Below are positions 28,929-41,970 of a DNA stretch of 64,000 bases, in pieces. Numbering within the stretch: the stretch's first letter is position 1; the number at the start of each line of letters is the position of its first letter. The DNA is from Lutibacter citreus. GTDB taxonomy: Bacteria > Bacteroidota > Bacteroidia > Flavobacteriales > Flavobacteriaceae. Below the pieces are notes generated by a model that worked only from the letters and a program-made list of their open reading frames with translations, was not told where the DNA came from and searched no databases. The stretch lies in the NCBI RefSeq assembly GCF_003260195.1, contig NZ_QEIH01000002.1:1-64000 (forward strand). The letters run 5' to 3'. The position numbers and the translations under genes were made by a program.

Positions 28929-31745
28929 TTAACCTACAATATTAATAATTTTACCCGGTACAATAATTACTTTTTTAGGTGTTCTTCCCTGTAATTGAGC
29001 TGCTGTTTTTTCGTGAGCCATTACAATATCTTCAATTTCTTGCTTACTTAAGTCTAACGGTAATAGAATTTTAAAACGCATTTTACCATTAAATGAAACT
29101 GGATATTCTTTTTCACTTTCAACCAAATGTTCTGGTTCAAATATTGGAAAATCTGCACAAGACACTGAAGTAGTGTTCCCTAACTTATTCCATAACTCTT
29201 CAGCAATATGCGGTGCATACGGCTCAATAATTACAGCTAAAGGCTCTAAAATTGTACGTTTATTACATTTTAACGCTGTTAATTCATTTACAGCAATCAT
29301 AAATGTTGAAACCGAAGTATTGAAAGAGAAATTAGCAATATCATCTTCAACCTTTTTTATTGTTTTATGAAGCGTTTTTAACTCATCTTTTGTTGGTGCT
29401 TCATCAGTAACAGAAAACTCTCCGTTTACAATGTATAATTTCCAAAGCTTTTTTAAGAAACTGTAAACACCCGAAATACCTGAAGTTTTCCAAGGTTTAG
29501 ATTGCTCTAAAGGCCCTAAAAACATTTCGAACAAACGTAAACTATCTGCTCCGTATTCTTCACAAATTTGATCTGGATTTACAACATTGTATTTAGATTT
29601 CGACATTTTTTCAACCTCTCTACCAACTTTAAAAGTCCCATCTTCCTCAGTAATAAATTCAGCATCGTTATATTCTGCTCTCCAATTTTTGAAGGCATCT
29701 ATATCCAACTCATCAGAACCGTTTACAAATGAGACATCTGCATGAATTGGTTGAACTTTTAAATCTCCAATTAATCCTTTTGAAACAAATTTATTTTCAC
29801 CTTCTATTCTATAAACAAAAGCCGAAGTTCCGGTAATCATTCCTTGGTTAATTAACTTTTTTGCATATTCATCAACAGGTACAATTCCTTTATCGAACAT
29901 AAATTTTTGCCAAAATCTAGAATATAATAAATGTCCTGTTGCATGCTCACTTCCACCAATATATAAATCTACATCTTGCCAATAATTTACAGCTTCTTCA
30001 GAAAATATATCCTCATTATTTTGAGGATCCATATACCTGTTAAAATACTGAGAACTTCCTGCCCAACCTGGCATGGTATTTAATTCTAAAGGAAAAATAG
30101 TTTCATTGTTAATTTCATCATTTGAAACTACTTCATTTTTAACAACGTCCCAAGCCCAAACAGTTGCATTTCCTAAAGGTGGTTTTCCATCTTCAGTAGG
30201 TAAATACTTTTCAACTTCTGGCAAAACAATTGGCAAATATTCTTTGTCAATCATTTGTGGCAATCCATTTTTATAATATACTGGAAAAGGTTCCCCCCAA
30301 TAACGTTGACGACTAAATACAGCATCACGCAAACGGTAGTTTATTTTTCCATAACCAATTCCACGTTTTTCAATTTCGTAGATAATGGTTTTCATTGCTT
30401 TCTTGTAAGTTAAGCCATTTAAAAAATCTGAATTTGCAATTTTCACACCTTCTTTTACTGAACATGCTTCTTCAGAAATATCAATTCCTTCAAAAATATT
30501 TGGAATATCTAATCCAAAATGATTAGCAAAAGCATAATCGCGCTCATCACCACAAGGTACAGCCATTACAGCTCCCGTTCCATAGCTTGCCAATACATAA
30601 TCTCCAATCCAAATTTGAACTTTTTCACCTGTAAAAGGATGTAAAGCATAAGCACCTGTAAACACACCAGAAATGGTTTTTACATCAGCCATACGTTCTA
30701 ATTCACTTCGTTTTGAAGTTGCTTTTACGTATGTTTCAACAGCTTCTTTTTGTTCAGCAGTTGTAATTTTAGAAACTAGCTCGTGTTCTGGTGCCAACGT
30801 CATAAAACTTACTCCGTAAACCGTATCAGGACGTGTAGTAAACACATCAATTTTAGCATCAAAACCATCAACATTAAAAGAAACCATTGCTCCTTCTGAA
30901 CGACCAATCCAGTAAGTTTGAGAATCTTTTAAAGGTTGTGGCCAGTCAATTTTACCCAATCCGTCTAATAAACGTTGTGCGTATGCAGTAATTCTCATAC
31001 TCCATTGCATCATTTTTTTACGAACTACAGCATGACCTCCACGTTCTGAAACTCCATTTACAATTTCATCGTTTGCCAACACTGTTCCTAAACCAGGACA
31101 CCAGTTAACTTCAGTTTCAGACAAAAATGTTAAACGGTATTTTAATAATATATTTTGTTTTTCTTCTTCTGAATAGTTTTTCCAATCTTCTGCAGAAAAC
31201 ACTTCAATTTCATCATCACAGGCAGCTTTTACAGTTTCATTTCCTTCAGCTTCAAAAATTGAAACTAATGTAGAAACATCTTCTGCTTTATCGCTTGTTT
31301 TATTGTACCAAGAATTGAACAATTGAATAAAAATCCATTGTGTCCATTTATAATAATTAGGATCTGAAGTTCTTACTTCACGAGACCAATCAAACGAAAA
31401 ACCAATTTTATCTAATTGTTTTCTGTATGTTTTTACATTGGCCGCAGTTGTTACTGCTGGGTGTTGCCCTGTTTGAATAGCATATTGCTCTGCAGGTAAT
31501 CCAAAAGAATCATATCCTTGTGGATGCATTACATTAAAACCTTTATGACGTTTGTAGCGTGCATAAATATCTGAAGCTATATAACCAAGAGGATGCCCAA
31601 CATGTAGTCCTGCTCCTGATGGATACGGAAACATATCTAATACAAAAAACTTTGGTTTATCTGATTTATTTTCGGCTTTAAATGTTTGGTTTTCTGCCCA
31701 ATACTGTTGCCATTTAGCTTCTATCTCTCTAAAATTATATTCCAT
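28929..31745 (-). CDS. leuS: Leucyl-tRNA synthetase
   Basis: 938 residues from the ATG at 31745; an in-frame TTG at 31757 lies within an upstream palindrome and is less likely. Class I motifs are HVGHPLGY near residue 48 and EKMSKSKYN near residue 713. The editing domain carries TTRPDTVYGV. It charges tRNA-Leu. The extra insert before the anticodon region is usual for Bacteroidota. A -7 box and a perfect palindrome lie immediately upstream. Confidence 0.97.
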   Translation of the reverse strand: MEYNFREIEAKWQQYWAENQTFKAENKSDKPKFFVLDMFPYPSGAGLHVGHPLGYIASDIYARYKRHKGFNVMHPQGYDSFGLPAEQYAIQTGQHPAVTTAANVKTYRKQLDKIGFSFDWSREVRTSDPNYYKWTQWIFIQLFNSWYNKTSDKAEDVSTLVSIFEAEGNETVKAACDDEIEVFSAEDWKNYSEEEKQNILLKYRLTFLSETEVNWCPGLGTVLANDEIVNGVSERGGHAVVRKKMMQWSMRITAYAQRLLDGLGKIDWPQPLKDSQTYWIGRSEGAMVSFNVDGFDAKIDVFTTRPDTVYGVSFMTLAPEHELVSKITTAEQKEAVETYVKATSKRSELERMADVKTISGVFTGAYALHPFTGEKVQIWIGDYVLASYGTGAVMAVPCGDERDYAFANHFGLDIPNIFEGIDISEEACSVKEGVKIANSDFLNGLTYKKAMKTIIYEIEKRGIGYGKINYRLRDAVFSRQRYWGEPFPVYYKNGLPQMIDKEYLPIVLPEVEKYLPTEDGKPPLGNATVWAWDVVKNEVVSNDEINNETIFPLELNTMPGWAGSSQYFNRYMDPQNNEDIFSEEAVNYWQDVDLYIGGSEHATGHLLYSRFWQKFMFDKGIVPVDEYAKKLINQGMITGTSAFVYRIEGENKFVSKGLIGDLKVQPIHADVSFVNGSDELDIDAFKNWRAEYNDAEFITEEDGTFKVGREVEKMSKSKYNVVNPDQICEEYGADSLRLFEMFLGPLEQSKPWKTSGISGVYSFLKKLWKLYIVNGEFSVTDEAPTKDELKTLHKTIKKVEDDIANFSFNTSVSTFMIAVNELTALKCNKRTILEPLAVIIEPYAPHIAEELWNKLGNTTSVSCADFPIFEPEHLVESEKEYPVSFNGKMRFKILLPLDLSKQEIEDIVMAHEKTAAQLQGRTPKKVIIVPGKIINIVG

Positions 31746-31748
31746 GGT

Positions 31749-31778
31749 CGCTTTCAAATTTTTGAAAGCGCAAAGTTA
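31749..31778 (-). promoter_or_regulatory. leuS promoter with a 22-base palindrome at the transcript start
   Basis: On the minus strand a -7 box TAACTTTG (plus-strand 31771-31778) is followed at once by a perfect inverted repeat, CGCTTTCAAA and TTTGAAAGCG with a two-base centre (31749-31770), ending 4 bases before the ATG. The predicted transcript start falls inside the repeat. It could be an operator or a leader structure. Confidence 0.55.
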
Positions 31779-35444: not shown

Positions 35445-35460
35445 TTTAGACTTATCTAAA
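35445..35460 (+). promoter_or_regulatory. Palindrome upstream of the DtxR gene, candidate metal-regulator operator
   Basis: TTTAGA-CTTA-TCTAAA is a palindrome with a 4-base centre, about 26 bases upstream of the -7 box at 35486. Half-sites TTAGA/TCTAA resemble those of DtxR/MntR-type repressors. A similar site with a 5-base centre lies ahead of feoA. Confidence 0.5.
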
Positions 35461-35499: not shown

Positions 35500-36168
35500 A
35501 TGAAATTAAAGTTATCACAAACAGAAGAAAATTATATTAAAGCAATCTACAGTATTGAGATACATACAGGTAAAAGTGTGAGTACTAACAAGATTGCTGA
35601 AAATTTAAAAACAAAGGCATCTTCCGTTACGGATATGATTAAAAAACTTTCTGATAAAAAATTAGTTGATTACGAAAAATATAAAGGTGTCACAACCACA
35701 TCTGAAGGAAAAAAACGAGCAATAAAAGTTGTTAGAAAACACCGATTATGGGAGGTCTTTTTAGTTGACAAACTAAATTTTAATTGGGATGAAGTACATG
35801 AAATTGCGGAACAATTAGAGCATATAGAATCTGATGAATTAATTACAAGATTAGACACTTTTTTAAACTTCCCAACAAAAGATCCTCATGGAGACCCAAT
35901 ACCAGATTCACAAGGCAACATAAGAATCAAAAATTCTATTTTATTAAATAGCGCAATACATAATACTTTATATAAAATTGCGAGTGTAAAAGATAATTCA
36001 AAAGCATTATTAAATTTTTTAGACAAGCATTCATTAAATATAGATTCGGAATTAACGGTGTTGGATAAATTAGATTTTGACGATTCAATGACCGTTAAAT
36101 TAAGTAATGGAAATAATTTAACATTATCAAAAAAAATATGTACCAACGTATTTGTAACTATAAAATAA
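35500..36168 (+). CDS. DtxR/MntR-family metal-dependent transcriptional regulator
   Basis: 222 residues. Winged-helix DNA-binding region at 1-75 (SSVTDMIKKLSDKKLV is the recognition area), then the dimerisation/metal region with HRLWEVFL, VHEIAEQLEH and the ligand-rich DPHGDPIP, and a short SH3-like C-terminal domain. It senses Fe(II) or Mn(II) and represses uptake genes. It is followed 4 bases later by a membrane-anchored relative and then by the feoB genes, so iron is the likely signal. Confidence 0.9.
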   Translation: MKLKLSQTEENYIKAIYSIEIHTGKSVSTNKIAENLKTKASSVTDMIKKLSDKKLVDYEKYKGVTTTSEGKKRAIKVVRKHRLWEVFLVDKLNFNWDEVHEIAEQLEHIESDELITRLDTFLNFPTKDPHGDPIPDSQGNIRIKNSILLNSAIHNTLYKIASVKDNSKALLNFLDKHSLNIDSELTVLDKLDFDDSMTVKLSNGNNLTLSKKICTNVFVTIK

Positions 36169-36172
36169 TATC

Positions 36173-37213
36173 ATGACAAACCCAGTAACATCTTTAGTTA
36201 TATTTGGAATTGTAGTGTTTCTCCTTTTCCTAATATTTTATCCGAAAAATGGAATTTATTGGAGAGTAAAAAGAAGTCTTGAAGACGATACTAAAACGCT
36301 AATTGAAGACATTCTTAAAAAATTATATCATGCTGAAGATAATGGTAACAACCTAAACAGCAACGACATAATAAACTCTTTAAATAGCAATCCTAAAAAA
36401 GTATTGGAAACTATTGCCGAAATGAAAAACAAAGAACTAATAAGTTTTGAAAACGGTGATATAAGATTAAACGAATTAGGAATGGACTATGCGCTTAGAA
36501 TAATAAGAGTTCATAGATTGTGGGAGAAATACCTTTCAGAAAAAACTGGTTTCGACAAAAAAGATTGGCACGAAATAGCTGAAAAAATGGAACATCAAAT
36601 AGATTCCAATCAAGCAAAAGAATTAGCTATTGATTTAGGAAATCCAAGATTTGACCCACATGGTGATCCAATCCCTACAGAAACAGGTGAAATTGAACCA
36701 ATAAATGGTAAACCGCTTCCTGCATTTTCTGAAGGAACTATTGGACGAATTATACATATTGAGGATGAACCTGAAATTATTTACAAACAAATTTTAGCTG
36801 AAGATTTACACATTGGTTCGCATGTTCATATAATTGAAAACAACAAAAAAAGAATCATTTTTCATTCTGAAGGTGAAGAATTTATTTTGGCGCCAATTGT
36901 TGCAAACAACCTTACTATTTCTGAACTACAAAAGGAAGACATTTCAGAAGAAGCTATTTTTAGACTTTCAAATTTAAAAGAAAATGAACAAGCTAAAATA
37001 ATAGGAATATCACGCGAATGTAGAGGAGAAACAAGAAGAAGACTGCTTGACCTAGGTTTTGTTATTAACACAAAAATTGAAGTTGATTTAATAAGCCCAA
37101 TGAGAAATCCTAGAGCATATTTAGTTAGAGACACTTCAATTGCAATACGAAACGAACAAGCCAAATTCATACTAATTGAAAAAATAAAAAATCATGCAAA
37201 AAGTAACATCTAG
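36173..37213 (+). CDS. Membrane-anchored DtxR-FeoA fusion protein
   Basis: 346 residues. One transmembrane helix at about 7-23, then a DtxR-like winged helix ([18 protein letters not shown]), the metal-binding region ([27 protein letters not shown]), and a C-terminal FeoA domain ([28 protein letters not shown]). Positive residues after the helix put the rest in the cytoplasm. FeoA is the small SH3-like partner of FeoB; here it is joined to a metal sensor at the membrane. The 3' end overlaps the feoB G-domain gene by 20 bases, so translation is coupled. Confidence 0.85.
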
Positions 37214-37964
37214 TGCTTGTGAAGGCTGTGACTTAAATAAAGCTTCAAACTTAAAAAAACTTGGAATAAACATAGATAACAACAACTATGTAGTTGCACT
37301 TGCAGGAAATCCAAACACTGGAAAAAGTACTGTTTTTAATGCATTAACGGGGTTAAAACAACATACTGGAAATTGGCCAGGAAAAACAGTAACTCGTGCA
37401 GAAGGTGGGTATAGCTACAATGATAAAAAATACAAATTAGTTGATCTTCCAGGAACATATTCGCTACTTTCTACCTCACAAGATGAAGAAGTTGCTAGGA
37501 ACTTTATACTCTTTGGAAAACCAGATGTAACTATTATTGTAGTTGATGCTAGCAGATTAGAACGTAACCTAAATTTAGTTTTGCAGATATTAGAAATAAC
37601 TGATAAAGCTGTATTGTGTTTAAATTTAATGGATGAAGCAAAACGCTTGCAAATTGATATTGATGACAGAACTTTAGCCCGAGATCTTGGAATCCCTGTT
37701 GTACCAACAAGTGCAAGATCTAAAGAAGGAATACCGGAGTTATTACAAACTGTACATCAAGTTGCAACTGGAGAAATTAAATGCAAACCTCATCGTATAA
37801 AAAATATTCCAAAAAACATAAACAACGCAATTGAAAAATTGCGTTTAGAAATAGAAACAGAGTATCCAAATGTACCAAACAGTAGATGGATAGCACTACG
37901 TTTATTAGATGGAGATGAACGGATTATTGAAGCTGTAAAAACAGGTGAATTTATTACTGAATAA
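37194..37964 (+). CDS. feoB: FeoB GTPase domain as a separate protein
   Basis: 256 residues covering only the G domain and guanine-nucleotide dissociation-inhibitor region of FeoB. G1 is [10 protein letters not shown] (residues 37-46), switch region [13 protein letters not shown]3 DLPGTYSL, G4 NLMDEA and G5 TSARSKEGI. Two Cys near the N-terminus (Cys9, Cys12) are extra. The transmembrane half is the next gene, 25 bases on. The stop is not an obvious simple frameshift, because both a stop and a frame change would have to be reversed to rejoin the halves. Confidence 0.85.
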
Positions 37965-37989
37965 TTAATTTTTTTGATTAGAAAAGACA

Positions 37990-39402
37990 ATGAAGACAAA
38001 CAAAATATTAAATACTAGTAATGACTTAAGATGGCAGATTGGTGAAGGGTTTCATGATAAATTAACTGAAGGGATTTATTCTGATGCGGCAACAATTGCT
38101 CAAAATTCGGTACAAAAAAAGGGCGATGAAAAACGCTTTAGATTTGATCGAAGCTTAGACAAAATTGTAACTAGCAAAATATGGGGATTTCCGATAATGA
38201 TACTTATTCTTTCTGTTGTTTTATGGCTTACCATAATTGGAGCAAATTACCCTTCAGGCTTATTAGCTGATTTATTAATAGGAACCGTTTATCCTTGGTT
38301 AAAAAGTATAGGAGAATCCTTAGGATTTTCATGGTGGTTAAGTGGTTTTTTGTTTGATGGTGTATATCTAGCTCTGGCATGGGTAATTGCCGTAATGCTA
38401 CCCCCAATGGCCATATTTTTTCCGCTTTTTACTTTGCTTGAAGATTTTGGATATTTACCTCGTGTAGCTTTTAATTTAGATCATTTATTAAAAAAATCTG
38501 GAGCACATGGAAAACAAGCCTTAACTATGAGTATGGGTTTTGGTTGTAATGCAGCAGGGGTAATTGCCACAAGAATAATTGATAGCCCAAGAGAACGTTT
38601 AATTGCAATTATAACAAATAATTTTTCTTTATGTAATGGTCGTTGGCCAACACAAATTTTAATTGCATCTATATTTATTGGAGCATTAGTTCCTGAAAAT
38701 TTTGCAGGTGCAGTTTCAACACTTGCAGTTATAAGTATTGCCTTATTGGGTATCTTTTTCACGTTTATGGTTTCTTTATTTTTATCAAAAACAATGTTAA
38801 AAGGAGAAGTATCTTCTTTTACTTTAGAATTACCTCCATATAGACCGCCAAGATTTTGGAAAACTATTTACACATCTTTAATAGATCGTACATTAATTGT
38901 TTTATGGAGAGCTTGTGTTTTTGCAGCTCCAGCAGGTGCGGTTATTTGGTTAATTTCAAATATTGCTATTGGAGATTCTAACATTGCCAACTGGTTAATT
39001 GTACATTTAGATGGTTTTGGACTTCTTTTAGGATTAAATGGTGTAATCTTATTAGCATATATTGTTGCCATTCCTGCAAATGAAATTGTTATACCTACTA
39101 TTCTTATGCTAACCGTAATGACAGCTTCAATTACCGGAGTAGGAAGTGGAGATGGTGTAATGTTTGAATTGGAATCTGTTTCAGCAACTGGAGACATCTT
39201 AAAAGCTGGAGGTTGGACCTTACTTACAGCCATTAATTTAATGTTGTTTAGTTTACTGCACAATCCATGCAGCACAACTATTTATACTATTTATAAAGAA
39301 ACAAAAAGTATTAAGTGGACTACCGTTGCTAGCATATTACCAATAATATTAGGGTTTATAGTTTGTTTTATTGTAGCCCAAGTATGGAGAATAATGGTAT
39401 AA
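37990..39402 (+). CDS. feoB: FeoB transmembrane (iron-permease) domain as a separate protein
   Basis: 470 residues. It starts with the linker that normally follows the G domain ([22 protein letters not shown]), then membrane helices with the gating motifs [13 protein letters not shown] and [11 protein letters not shown], and ends with [16 protein letters not shown]. These are the two Gate regions with conserved Cys. It should form the Fe(II) channel, driven by the separately made GTPase. A terminator-like hairpin follows. Confidence 0.85.
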
Positions 39403-39501: not shown

Positions 39502-39624
39502 TTAATTTTTGCAACTCCCACAACCCGGACCACAATTATCATCTTTTGTAGATTTAAAGAAATACTTTTTAACTAAAAAACCAATTGCTAATCCCAGCGC
39601 TATGTATACTAAAATATCTTGCAT
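39502..39624 (-). CDS. FeoB-associated Cys-rich membrane protein (40 residues)
   Basis: A 40-residue reading frame starting at ATG 39624 and overlapping the stop of the upstream feoB by one base (TAATG), so translation is coupled. It has one hydrophobic segment (ILVYIALGLAIGFLV) and a C-terminal tail DDNCGPGCGSCKN with three Cys. This matches the small FeoB-associated Cys-rich proteins found beside feoB in many bacteria, thought to help Fe(II) transport. Confidence 0.85.
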   Translation of the reverse strand: MQDILVYIALGLAIGFLVKKYFFKSTKDDNCGPGCGSCKN

Positions 39625-41735
39625 TAACTAAAAATATTAAAAACTATTACAGCCGAAACATAAGCTAAAATCCCCATTCCAAATAACTGAAGCATTGGCC
39701 ATTTCCAACTATTAGTTTCTCGCTTAACAATTGCCAAGGTACCAACACATTGCATTGCAAAGGCATAGAATATTAATAAAGACATTCCCGTTGGAAAATT
39801 AAACCGTTTTTCACCCGTATCCGGATTTATCTCAGCTGCCATTCGCTCTTTTATAGTACCTGTATTTTCACCATCGCTATCAACATTATAAATTGTTGCT
39901 AAGGCACCAACAAAAACTTCACGAGCAGCAAAAGAACTAATTAAAGCAATACCAATTTTCCAATCATAACCCATTGGTTTAATAACAGGTTCAATTGTTT
40001 TCCCCATATAACCAATATAAGAGTTCTCTAATTTATATGAAGCAATTTTCTTTTGAAGCTCTTGAGGATGAAGCTCTGAATTTTCAACCTTATTAGTAAC
40101 AATTTCTTCGGCATTTTTAAATGATGAAGATCCGTTTGATGCTAAAAACCAAAGTACAATTGAAAGCGCTAAAATAATTTTACCTGCTCCAAAAATAAAG
40201 GCTTTTGTTTTTTCAACAACTTCGTATAAAATATTTTTAATTGAAGGTAATTTATAATTTGGCATTTCAATTACAAATAAACTTTTACTCTTAATTTTTA
40301 AAACATTATGCAATAAAATTGAAGATGAAATAGCTGCTGTAAAGCCTAACAAATACATGGCCATCATTGTTAAACCTTGCAAATTTAAAAATCCAAAAAT
40401 TCTTTTATCAGGAATAATTAATGCAATTAAAATTGCATATACAGGTAAACGCGCGGAACAAGTTGTAAATGGAACTACTAAAATTGTTATTAAACGCTCT
40501 TTCCAACTTCCAATATTTCTTGAAGCCATAATTGCTGGAATTGCACAGGCAGTACCCGAAATTAACGGTATAACACTTTTACCACTCATTCCAAATTTTC
40601 GCATTATTTTATCCATTAAAAAAACTACACGGCTCATATAACCTGTTTCTTCAAGAATGGAAATAAATGTAAATAAAATAGCTATTTGCGGAATAAAAAT
40701 TATTACACCTCCAATACCAGGAATAACTCCTTCAGCAATTAAATTTGTAAAAGTTCCTGGAGGCATTACTGATTTTGTCCAAGAACTCAAATTTGCAAAA
40801 GCAGTATCAATTAAATCCATTGGGTACGTTGCCCAATTAAAAATACCTTGAAAAATAAACAACAAAATGAGTGCAAAAATCACATATCCAAAAATCTTAT
40901 GGGTAAGCACTCTATCTAAAACACCTCTTAAATCTGTTGCCTTAGATTTATCTACATTAAAAGTATCTTTTAAAACATCATTAATTATTTGATATCTAAA
41001 AATTGTTTCTTTATGTTGATAACGCTTAATGCATTCTAAATTTTCTCTAAATTTTAAAACTAATTTTTTCTCATCTTCAGTTATAAAATCAAATTCCTTT
41101 TTTTGGGTAATAAGCAACCAAGACTTATATAAAGGAAACTCTGGAAACGCTTCCTTTAACTTAGAAAAATATTCTTTATCTATTTTAATTGAAATATCTC
41201 CAACTGGTGTTATATCAATATTTTTATAATCTAAAATAGCTTCTTTTAAATCTCCAATCCCAATTTTTTTTCGGGCACTAGCAAGAACTATTTTAGTATT
41301 AAGTTGTTTCTCTAATTTTTGTACATTTATATGAATACCTTTTCTATTCATTTGGTCAATCATATTGATTACCAAAATTGTAGGTATTTTTAAATCTTTT
41401 AATTGTGTAAAAAGGAGTAAGTTTCTTTTAATGTTTTCAATATCTACAACCACAACAATTACATCCGGAAATGCATCACCTTCTTCATTTAACAAGGTAT
41501 CTAAAACCAAAGTTTCATCTAGTGATGTTGGATTAATGCTATATGTTCCTGGTAAATCGGTAATTTCCGCCTTAACAGATTCATTTAATTTACAAAATCC
41601 TTGTTTTTTTTCTACAGTAATACCTGGGTAGTTTCCAACCTTTTGTTTTAAACCTGTAAGTTGATTGAATAATGAAGTTTTTCCTGTATTGGGGTTTCCT
41701 ATTAAAGCAACTTTTACGACATTGTCATTAGTCAT
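39624..41735 (-). CDS. feoB: Ferrous iron transporter FeoB, full length
   Basis: 703 residues. G1 GNPNTGKTS (residues 13-21), switch NYPGITVEKKQG, G3 DLPGTYSI, G4 NMIDQM and G5 SARKKIGI, then the transmembrane part with Gate motifs SGTACAIPAIMASR and FTTCSARLPVY and the C-terminal FAMQCVGTLAIVKRE. It imports Fe(II) with GTP hydrolysis. Sequence differs from the split FeoB in the gates, so it is a distinct system, not a recent duplicate. It follows feoA by 10 bases. Confidence 0.95.
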   Translation of the reverse strand: MTNDNVVKVALIGNPNTGKTSLFNQLTGLKQKVGNYPGITVEKKQGFCKLNESVKAEITDLPGTYSINPTSLDETLVLDTLLNEEGDAFPDVIVVVVDIENIKRNLLLFTQLKDLKIPTILVINMIDQMNRKGIHINVQKLEKQLNTKIVLASARKKIGIGDLKEAILDYKNIDITPVGDISIKIDKEYFSKLKEAFPEFPLYKSWLLITQKKEFDFITEDEKKLVLKFRENLECIKRYQHKETIFRYQIINDVLKDTFNVDKSKATDLRGVLDRVLTHKIFGYVIFALILLFIFQGIFNWATYPMDLIDTAFANLSSWTKSVMPPGTFTNLIAEGVIPGIGGVIIFIPQIAILFTFISILEETGYMSRVVFLMDKIMRKFGMSGKSVIPLISGTACAIPAIMASRNIGSWKERLITILVVPFTTCSARLPVYAILIALIIPDKRIFGFLNLQGLTMMAMYLLGFTAAISSSILLHNVLKIKSKSLFVIEMPNYKLPSIKNILYEVVEKTKAFIFGAGKIILALSIVLWFLASNGSSSFKNAEEIVTNKVENSELHPQELQKKIASYKLENSYIGYMGKTIEPVIKPMGYDWKIGIALISSFAAREVFVGALATIYNVDSDGENTGTIKERMAAEINPDTGEKRFNFPTGMSLLIFYAFAMQCVGTLAIVKRETNSWKWPMLQLFGMGILAYVSAVIVFNIFS

Positions 41736-41745
41736 TACTTTAAAA

Positions 41746-41970
41746 TTACTTAACTATAGTTATTTTTTCTGCAGTTTCTTTCCTTATTGCTAAATGACTT
41801 CCATTAACTTTAATATATAATGGGTCAAGCATTGGTGCTTTTTGGATTAATTGTACTTCCATTCCTGGCAAACAACCCATTTCCAGCAATTTTAAAGGAA
41901 TTTTGTCTAAACAAAGTTTTTCAATAAAAGCTGATTCTCCAATTTGTAAGTTTGCAATAGTTTTAAACAT
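41746..41970 (-). CDS. feoA: FeoA, ferrous iron transport accessory protein
   Basis: 74 residues, the usual SH3-like FeoA length. It contains ANLQIGESAFIEKL, MGCLPGMEVQLIQ and NGSHLAIRKETAEKI. FeoA binds FeoB at the cytoplasmic face and supports Fe(II) uptake. It is the first gene of the minus-strand feoA-feoB-Cys-rich operon and has a clear -7 box and an operator-like palindrome ahead of it. Confidence 0.9.
   Translation of the reverse strand: MFKTIANLQIGESAFIEKLCLDKIPLKLLEMGCLPGMEVQLIQKAPMLDPLYIKVNGSHLAIRKETAEKITIVK

Follow-up and report, generated by a model that had tools for sequence, protein, structure and literature searches.

The window, the whole 64,000-nucleotide stretch of Lutibacter citreus contig NZ_QEIH01000002.1 analyzed here, carries a gene for a membrane-tethered DtxR-FeoA protein (ANCH) followed by separate genes for the GTPase and channel parts of FeoB. 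The features of the locus and of its neighboring Feo operon are as follows.

35445..35460, no strand: candidate operator palindrome TTTAGACTTATCTAAA, preceding the soluble DtxR gene
35500..36168, + strand: soluble DtxR/MntR-family repressor gene, 222 aa from ATG, with HTH, metal/dimerization, and SH3/FeoA-like domains
36173..37213, + strand: tethered DtxR-FeoA gene (ANCH), 346 aa, from Pfam, AlphaFold2, and structure match
36182..36235, + strand: N-terminal membrane helix of ANCH, residues 4-21, from the AlphaFold2 model
36284..36682, + strand: winged-helix and metal-binding/dimerization domains of ANCH, residues 38-170
36740..36925, + strand: first SH3/FeoA-like domain of ANCH, residues 190-251, with an H-x-E-D-E-P motif
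36959..37186, + strand: true FeoA domain of ANCH, residues 263-338, with an RRR motif at 288-290
37194..37964, + strand: FeoB GTPase gene, 256 aa, with N-terminal CxxC, G domain, and first part of the cytosolic helical (GDI) domain
37990..39402, + strand: FeoB channel gene, 470 aa, with the rest of the helical domain, Gate, and FeoB_C
39502..39624, - strand: Cys-rich single-helix peptide, 40 aa, of the neighboring canonical Feo operon, from sequence
39624..41735, - strand: second, canonical full-length FeoB, 703 aa, TIGR00437 505.7 bits
41746..41970, - strand: canonical stand-alone FeoA, 74 aa, of the neighboring operon, Pfam FeoA 60.7 bits

Recomputed ORF coordinates reproduced the 20-bp overlap between ANCH and the GTPase gene and the position of the channel gene as the next gene, 25 bp further on in a different frame. 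All of the parts named in the initial annotation were present, but that description began one gene late and missed the soluble DtxR gene and the palindrome upstream. The canonical feoA-feoB pair (39624-41970) lies on the other strand, convergent to the tethered-sensor operon, and its feoA, the stand-alone copy of the window, is located 2.3 kb past the channel gene. Rfam gave zero matches in the window at the gathering threshold.

ANCH scored 78.6 bits with the Pfam model Fe_dep_repr_C and 69.9 bits with FeoA, and its AlphaFold2 model (mean pLDDT, 92.3; pTM, 0.81) showed a single N-terminal helix at residues 4-21, bearing out the one-helix anchor and the FeoA domain that had been proposed. When the model was superposed on known structures, the best match was that of residues 43-252 to the Mn-bound repressor 5zr6_B (Z, 21.9; rmsd, 1.7 over 206), and residues 263-338 matched the Bacteroides fragilis FeoA domain 7r7b_A (Z, 13.6; rmsd, 1.5 over 74). 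The RRR motif of this domain was invariant in 30 sequences, and it is as a domain of ANCH that FeoA is present in this Feo system. Pfam score, fold, and ligands together identify a DtxR-family metal/dimerization domain with His/Glu ligands, the metal-site residues being D46, H114, E118, H133, E137, E140, and H141.

Orthologous loci came from two overlapping sets (contigs of matching length suggest that L048 is L013, that L073 is the locus of L200, and that L109 is that of L201): loci of the window's phylum, and named loci found by patterns that included DPHGDPIP and HxEDEP, for which the best 80 matches were listed and 79 remained after removal of L118, an ordinary DtxR. Pooling of both sets, near relatives included, gave 112 tethered sequences, a class assigned from a hydrophobic stretch ahead of the core; 13 DtxR ORFs that could not be classed clearly, six of them truncated or anchor-less orthologs, were excluded from the residue and charge counts and from the DtxR-core tree. 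The metal-ligand motifs quoted in the initial annotation were found intact, and H114, E118, H133, E140, and H141 were retained in all 112 sequences, although conservation inside DPHGDPIP and HxEDEP is partly due to selection, because the search patterns contained those motifs. D46 was retained in 108 of the 112 sequences, and position 137 was Glu in 91 and Asp in 11.

The Glu at position 137 of ANCH is the residue found there in Mn-type sensors. With the Mn-bound repressor as best fold match, and with a tether like that of ABC-3 metal permeases, it speaks for a manganese or mixed Mn/Fe importer (Meo-like) in which the tethered module senses Mn2+. Glu/Asp/His metal sites are also able to bind Fe2+, however, and the adjoining canonical FeoAB does not tell which of the two systems takes up iron, so that we regard a manganese role as somewhat unlikely. 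Such a role would change the metal and not the control mechanism, and it can be reconciled with the off-switch proposed below. Some Feo loci do carry Mn, one in Porphyromonas gingivalis among them, according to two reports (PMC8749426, PMC4805248).

In the DtxR/MntR repressors (5zr6, DR2539/8pvt, ScaR, and IdeR), the winged-helix, metal/dimerization, and SH3 domains and the ligand positions are as in ANCH; those proteins are soluble and DNA binding, whereas ANCH is membrane anchored, has an acidic winged helix, and carries an extra C-terminal FeoA domain. The DtxR module and twin FeoA domains of PgMntR from P. gingivalis recall the two FeoA-like domains of ANCH; unlike ANCH, PgMntR has no membrane anchor mentioned in the available text of its report (PMC4805248), which assayed it for regulation through DNA binding and detected no interaction with the feoB1 promoter. 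In an unrooted DtxR-core tree (134 columns), tethered, permease-fused, and soluble DtxRs formed three separate clades, and the tethered modules were a single clade with support of 99/97 (32 sequences).

The winged helix of the tethered modules differs from that of the soluble repressors. The N-terminal HTH Pfam model gave 12.6 bits in ANCH against a cut-off of 26, although the winged-helix fold was present in the AlphaFold2 model; mean net charge of the winged helix was -3.25 in the tethered sequences (n = 112) versus +2.03 in soluble DtxRs (n = 87); and the Y-x-x-Y-x-G wing was missing from the tethered-module consensus. As judged from sequence, the tethered winged helix probably no longer binds DNA and now serves protein contacts or dimer geometry. 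Tethering by itself does not entail this loss, because in the permease-fused DtxR modules the winged helix is still basic (+2.43; 23 sequences).

Transcription of the operon has its own regulator, since a soluble DtxR gene (Pfam HTH, 63.5 bits; Fe_dep_repr_C, 112.6 bits) and an upstream palindrome precede ANCH. In 26 of 30 phylum loci, window included, the soluble gene lay upstream, and a palindrome-like site matching 10 or more of the 12 specified bases was found in 11 of 11 same-genus loci and in all 7 Flavobacteriaceae-type named loci examined. Among 58 upstream regions, TTTAG-n6-CTAAA occurred in 25 and TTAAG-n4-CTTAA in 18 others, with 0 of the 58 containing the reversed control of the latter. 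With the window's family and the 7 Flavobacteriaceae-type loci set aside, 37 upstream regions were left, and in 32 of them the window motif failed to reach significance against shuffles at 0.05; it was marginal in L133 (one of the 11 genus loci) and L010. Derivation of a regulon from the palindrome was abandoned: the pattern is common genome-wide (96 occurrences versus 18 for the reversed control), and a perfect match at 29496-29511 falls inside a 942-aa ORF (28929-31757).

The complete winged helix in the model, the existence of an upstream palindrome, and the basic charge of the permease-fused modules would allow the tethered DtxR to be a membrane-bound transcription factor that binds the operon palindrome and reports import through contact with FeoB. 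Its acidic charge, lost wing, and subthreshold HTH score, together with the soluble paralog already in the operon, make this role quite improbable.

The membrane helix of ANCH is followed by P24-x-x-G27 and then by a basic stretch, and by the positive-inside rule the remainder of the protein should be cytoplasmic. A P-x-x-G exactly 21 residues before winged-helix helix 1 was found in 99 of 112 tethered and 21 of 23 permease-fused sequences and in none of 86 soluble DtxRs; a looser pattern with a single helix-1 site gave 87/112, 20/23, and 0/79, respectively. The exact spacing is the stronger point, because a PxxG near the helix end was also present in 10 of 104 unrelated ORFs whose N-terminus forms a hydrophobic helix. 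In this predicted segment, ANCH is similar to the final helix of DtxR-bearing metal ABC permeases, and S-P-x-x-G followed the last helix in 6 of 11 distinct unfused ABC-3 permeases from the same loci. ABC-3 metal permeases with a C-terminal DtxR have the module on the final membrane helix with the same PxxG spacing as ANCH, but they belong to another transporter family, join permease and sensor in one chain, keep a basic winged helix, and had no true FeoA domain that we could see, whereas ANCH has one. The tether is not universal, because by a crude measure 4 of 77 untruncated named orthologs (L099, L107, L112, and L116; best 80 matches listed) lacked a hydrophobic anchor; that of L115 was borderline by crude hydrophobicity.

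GTPase and channel, which form one polypeptide in an ordinary FeoB, are encoded by separate genes in the tethered-sensor operon. The GTPase half (FeoB_N, 207.7 bits; FeoB_Cyto, 31.6 bits; AlphaFold2 mean pLDDT, 80.8) contains the G1, G3, and G4 motifs, with NLxD invariant across 24 sequences; the channel half scored 85.2 bits with Gate and 52.2 bits with FeoB_C, and a crude hydropathy count gave 8 hydrophobic segments in its closest named relatives. Because the two genes jointly cover positions 1-178 and 227-594 of the 594 in TIGR00437, neither reaching the cut-off alone, we treat the two-gene FeoB as a variant of the Feo system.

The initial annotation had called for a survey of how often sensor fusion and split occur together, and had left open that resequencing might join the two feoB halves. 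All 30 loci of the window's phylum, window included, had a split FeoB; of the 79 named loci (best 80 matches listed), 52 were split, 22 were fused, and 5 were not classifiable. The 22 fused relatives are joined at the split point through a variable linker of 1-99 residues. Sequencing error was ruled out by this recurrence in the phylum and in 52 of 74 classifiable named loci, at the linker site of fused FeoBs, and the split is genuine. In one named locus, L106, the GTPase was present and the channel was not found, though the contig continues.

The suggestion that the split could let the GTPase be regulated apart from the channel was weakened. The sensor accompanies an unsplit FeoB in 22 of the 74 classifiable loci, and in four loci with a split FeoB an ordinary FeoA takes the place of the tethered sensor, so that split and sensor fusion are separable and a functional tie between them was rejected as a rule. 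Of 75 loci that had both parts, 71 went into a quick tree (the window's row and three others, with short or broken matches, were left out), which required 11 changes between split and fused states, at least 4 of them forced by well-supported branches; its root is unsure because the outgroup branch is very long. The FeoB break recurs at a flexible linker of the cytosolic helical domain and is probably neutral to metal control.

Association of the tethered sensor with FeoB is strict. The FeoB GTPase gene was next to ANCH in 78 of the 79 named loci (best 80 matches listed), the 79th ending at a contig edge, and over 108 measured loci the distance between the two genes ranged from -49 to 147 nt. 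Among 395 genomes sampled from the phylum, 41 had the full tethered protein, and all 41 also encoded this channel type. The 79 loci span at least 11 named phyla, a lower bound since only the best 80 matches were listed; they are mostly metagenome bins, with 8 named isolates (7 Bacteroidota and 1 Planctomycetota), and contig misassignment is possible for the phyla beyond these two, where all are bins. No genuine stand-alone FeoA was found in the flanks of 109 loci (1.5 to 3.5 kb per side, less at contig edges), two weak matches being judged antisense noise, and in all four readable loci that lack the tethered protein, a stand-alone FeoA adjoined the split FeoB. This pattern suggests that the tethered protein stands in for FeoA. 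The earlier claim that an iron-sensing domain sits physically beside the transporter was upheld as far as a metal-sensing module is concerned: module and FeoA share one membrane-tethered chain, encoded next to its own FeoB across these phyla, and the ligands are kept. Since the sensor has all of these properties, direct tuning of FeoB by metal is the most economical reading.

We propose, with a probability of roughly one in two, that the locus encodes a ferrous-type metal importer with two-layer feedback, in which a soluble repressor would act on transcription and the tethered DtxR-FeoA would be a metal-driven off-switch. The soluble DtxR-family protein behind the recurrent palindrome would supply the transcriptional layer. 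The channel would pass Fe2+ and possibly Mn2+ while the FeoA domain of ANCH, bound to the GTPase in its GTP form, keeps the importer on; as cytosolic metal rises, the DtxR module would bind it, its dimer or SH3 arrangement would shift, and FeoA would be pulled off the GTPase, shutting import quickly without transcription. In the B. fragilis FeoAB fusion, FeoA is likewise covalently tied to the Feo machinery; it contacts the GTPase and slows GTP hydrolysis ~50-fold, and an "unknown downstream signal" is suggested to dislodge it once iron is sufficient (PMC8980893). There FeoA is fused to the GTPase, with no metal sensor, whereas in ANCH it is fused to the sensor. The direction proposed, with metal as the off signal, is drawn by analogy with this one fusion. 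The ligands may instead be conserved because they stabilize the fold or the dimer; four loci with a split FeoB have ordinary FeoA, so that the sensor can in principle be dispensed with; and the stand-alone FeoA of the window's canonical operon could serve both Feo systems.

Two other roles were weighed against the off-switch. With its metal site at the membrane and its gene next to that of the channel, the module might be an acceptor at the pore exit, a buffer or chaperone taking Fe2+ from the channel, but DtxR-family metal sites work allosterically and the FeoA fusion is better explained by GTPase control, which makes an acceptor very unlikely. FeoC is a winged-helix accessory of FeoB (FeoABC) and in this respect like ANCH, though to our knowledge it is small and has neither a DtxR dimerization domain nor a FeoA domain. 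ANCH might accordingly be a scaffold whose tether brings FeoA to the membrane and whose FeoC-like winged helix shields FeoB from proteolysis, with no regulatory metal role; this is unlikely, as it leaves the five invariant ligands unexplained. Salmonella FeoC does protect FeoB from FtsH, and FeoC occurs primarily in Gammaproteobacteria, according to PMC10710835 and PMC8749426, respectively; both points favor the scaffold.

A search of the literature that included few subscription journals found no published membrane-tethered DtxR-FeoA protein, no such split FeoB, and no DtxR-carrying ABC permease brake. More tentatively, a portable membrane-tethered DtxR module may act as a direct brake on metal import in the unrelated ABC-3 permeases and Feo systems, supplying in Feo the missing cue for FeoA to leave the GTPase at metal sufficiency; it might have originated when the last permease helix and the sensor were cut out and joined to FeoA. 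The like tether on both transporters would suggest a wider rule, by which metal repressor modules are recruited as transporter brakes. A FeoA built into a membrane metal sensor makes the way in which Feo turns off at iron sufficiency directly testable. Many bacteria appear to carry FeoA on a membrane-anchored metal sensor, through which intracellular metal could directly switch the importer off, and genes next to feoB that are annotated as DtxR-type transcription regulators may not control transcription.

The GTPase half also carries an N-terminal Cys pair, which was considered as a private mark of split FeoB. It was present in 94 of 95 split or unclassified loci and in 14 of 17 fused loci with the P-loop pattern (5 of 117 loci, in which that pattern was not found, were dropped), and the idea was rejected. 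The His adjoining the pair was not general, occurring in 53 of the 95 and 7 of the 17.

In the 5.1-Mb genome, the gene for ANCH, a membrane-tethered DtxR-FeoA protein whose locus has its closest named relatives mostly in Flavobacteriaceae, was found among the following features.

from 35445: palindrome, upstream of the soluble DtxR gene
35500-36168: soluble DtxR/MntR-like gene
36173-37213 (+): ANCH, tethered DtxR-FeoA, 346 aa
37194-37964: FeoB GTPase gene, with a 20-bp overlap with the ANCH gene
37990-39402: FeoB channel gene
41970-39502 (-): canonical feoA-feoB pair and a 40-aa Cys-rich membrane peptide, convergent with the split system

The observation of the initial annotation was correct and applies more widely than the first reading could reveal. 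The canonical feoA-feoB pair converges on the split system, and two Feo systems therefore lie side by side in this genome. The RRR motif of the ANCH FeoA domain was absent from the FeoA of the canonical operon.

An AlphaFold2 model of ANCH, built from a 64-sequence alignment, was confident (mean pLDDT, 92.3; pTM, 0.81) and contained a membrane helix (residues 4-21), a long helix (28-56) leading into the winged helix, and then a metal/dimerization domain followed by two FeoA-type domains, the first SH3/FeoA-like (190-251) and the other a true FeoA (263-338). When the model was superposed on known structures, residues 43-252 matched 5zr6_B, a repressor with bound Mn (206 residues; Z, 21.9; rmsd, 1.7), whereas Bacteroides fragilis FeoA 7r7b_A was matched by residues 263-338 (74 residues; Z, 13.6; rmsd, 1.5); the sequence matches were in agreement. 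Because basic residues follow the membrane helix, and a basic flank marks the cytoplasmic side under the positive-inside rule, the sensor and FeoA are predicted to be cytoplasmic.

Orthologues numbered 79 among the best 80 loci from a scan of 84,980 genomes, only 8 from named isolates and the others from metagenome bins, and these orthologues represented Bacteroidota, Ignavibacteriota, Chlorobiota, Balneolota, Calditrichota, Chloroflexota, Verrucomicrobiota, Planctomycetota, Acidobacteriota, Gemmatimonadota, and Myxococcota, with two unplaced. By a crude hydropathy measure, the anchor was found in 30/30 loci from the window's phylum and in 72 of these 79 orthologues; among the other seven, two were truncated, one was borderline, and four (L099, L107, L112, and L116) seemed anchorless.

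Positions in 112 tethered modules were matched to DtxR by alignment. Residues corresponding to DtxR H79, E83, H98, E105, and H106, which we take to be metal ligands, were kept in every one of the 112. Asp occupied the DtxR M10/MntR D8 position in 108 modules, and at the C102/E99 position 91 modules had Glu and 11 had Asp. The net charge of the winged helix averaged -3.25 in these modules and +2.03 in the 87 soluble DtxRs that those loci encode, and the tethered modules lacked the Y-x-x-Y-x-G wing seen in the soluble consensus. The tethered module thus looks like a retained sensor with an altered DNA reader.

The soluble DtxR gene adjoining ANCH retains the wing (YEKYKG in the window) and is preceded by the palindrome TTTAGA-n4-TCTAAA, which recurred with no more than two changes in 11/11 same-genus loci and in all 7 Flavobacteriaceae-type named loci examined. 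Among 58 upstream regions, TTTAG-n6-CTAAA was present in 25 and TTAAG-n4-CTTAA in another 18. The longer form of the latter, TTTAAG-n4-CTTAAA, was observed upstream of the soluble gene in L014, L017, L022, L025, L027, L034, L049, L058, L070, and L074; this second palindrome suggests that the operator drifted together with its repressor. The simplest reading would be a division of labor in which metal sensing by the soluble protein serves transcription and metal sensing by the tethered protein serves the transporter.

The split of FeoB reported in the initial annotation was real. The order ANCH-GTPase-channel, with GTPase and channel in separate frames, was kept in all 30 phylum loci, the window included. 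Among the 79 orthologues in the best 80 loci, a FeoB GTPase gene came after ANCH in 78, the 79th stopping at a contig edge, and FeoB was split in 52, fused in 22, and unclassified in 5. The junction in fused relatives, with very divergent linkers of 1 to 99 residues, coincided with the window's split point, which lies inside the cytosolic helical (GDI) domain and leaves its first part on the GTPase gene (FeoB_Cyto 3-46 of 90). A quick tree suggests that the split/fused state changed repeatedly.

Several further features of the FeoB genes were observed. The linker was hypervariable across the fused relatives and was built of short tandem repeats in L065 and L095, and in 3/30 phylum loci from two families (L016, L023, and L029; f35 twice, f17 once) an ORF of 110 to 128 aa, presumably GxxExxY-like, was inserted between the halves. 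In L106, ANCH and the GTPase gene were present and the channel gene was not found, the contig continuing beyond. A conserved C-x-x-C ahead of the G domain (37218-37229 in the window, at the GTPase N terminus) occurred in 94/95 split-or-unclassified and 14/17 fused loci read and may give the GTPase a second metal-binding or redox site.

In a sample of 395 genomes of the phylum, 46 had the channel type of the split system, and these included all 41 genomes with full-length ANCH; within the window's genus the distribution was patchy (12/38 genomes). Of the five genomes with the channel and without ANCH, one reflected a contig edge and four had split FeoB with ordinary FeoA, a short stand-alone protein encoded next to the GTPase gene at the usual place of ANCH. 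The split and the sensor are thus separable, and the split, which the initial annotation suggested could let the GTPase be controlled apart from the channel, is probably incidental. No genuine stand-alone FeoA was found in the examined flanks of 109 ANCH loci; that of the window lies farther out, within the canonical operon. Since stand-alone FeoA was missing from these flanks and present in the four loci with split FeoB and no ANCH, ANCH appears to substitute for FeoA and to bring a sensor with it.

Passages of PMC8980893 describe nucleotide-dependent GTPase binding by B. fragilis FeoA, which slows GTP hydrolysis ~50-fold and is thought to hold import on, and leave open what removes FeoA once iron suffices; DtxR-linked FeoA-like proteins were taken out by hand in that work. 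ANCH, in which FeoA would be carried by a membrane-anchored and putatively metal-responsive dimer, is by analogy a candidate for what dislodges it. FeoA would be suspended from the anchored dimer, metal binding would rearrange the dimer, and FeoA would be pulled back, shutting import by transinhibition, a principle described for other transporters (PMC10710835). The sequences show the domains, their conservation, the gene linkage, the palindrome, and the split; from these we infer the FeoA-GTPase contact, the metal response, its direction, and the substrate. Tuning of FeoB by iron at the membrane, as initially proposed, is plausible, with Mn2+ as the metal instead a serious alternative; ANCH turns the open question of Feo shutoff into an experiment. 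The main texts of PMC10710835 and PMC8749426 do not use the word DtxR, and "split" in PMC10353542 denotes feoA separated from feoB in Helicobacter; PMC4805248 concerns PgMntR of Porphyromonas gingivalis, a DtxR module with twin FeoA domains.

Searches with ANCH also matched proteins of 420 to 520 aa that consist of a metal ABC-3 permease with a C-terminal DtxR module on its last membrane helix (L119-L124 and L159-L179); with one fusion as the query, such proteins were found in 21/296 phylum genomes (E up to 1e-60). In 21/23 permease fusions, P-x-x-G followed the last helix exactly 21 residues ahead of the acidic beginning of winged-helix helix 1. Because the identical spacing occurred in 99/112 ANCH proteins (0/86 soluble DtxRs) and 6 of the 11 distinct ABC-3 permeases that these loci encode without a fusion ended in S-P-x-x-G, the motif suggests that the ANCH anchor may be a leftover permease helix. 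The DtxR-core tree, being unrooted, does not prove descent from a permease and formed three separate clades: tethered (99/97), permease fused (96/82), and soluble (100/98). The permease-fused modules kept the metal ligands, had a basic winged helix, and look like another, putative direct metal brake.
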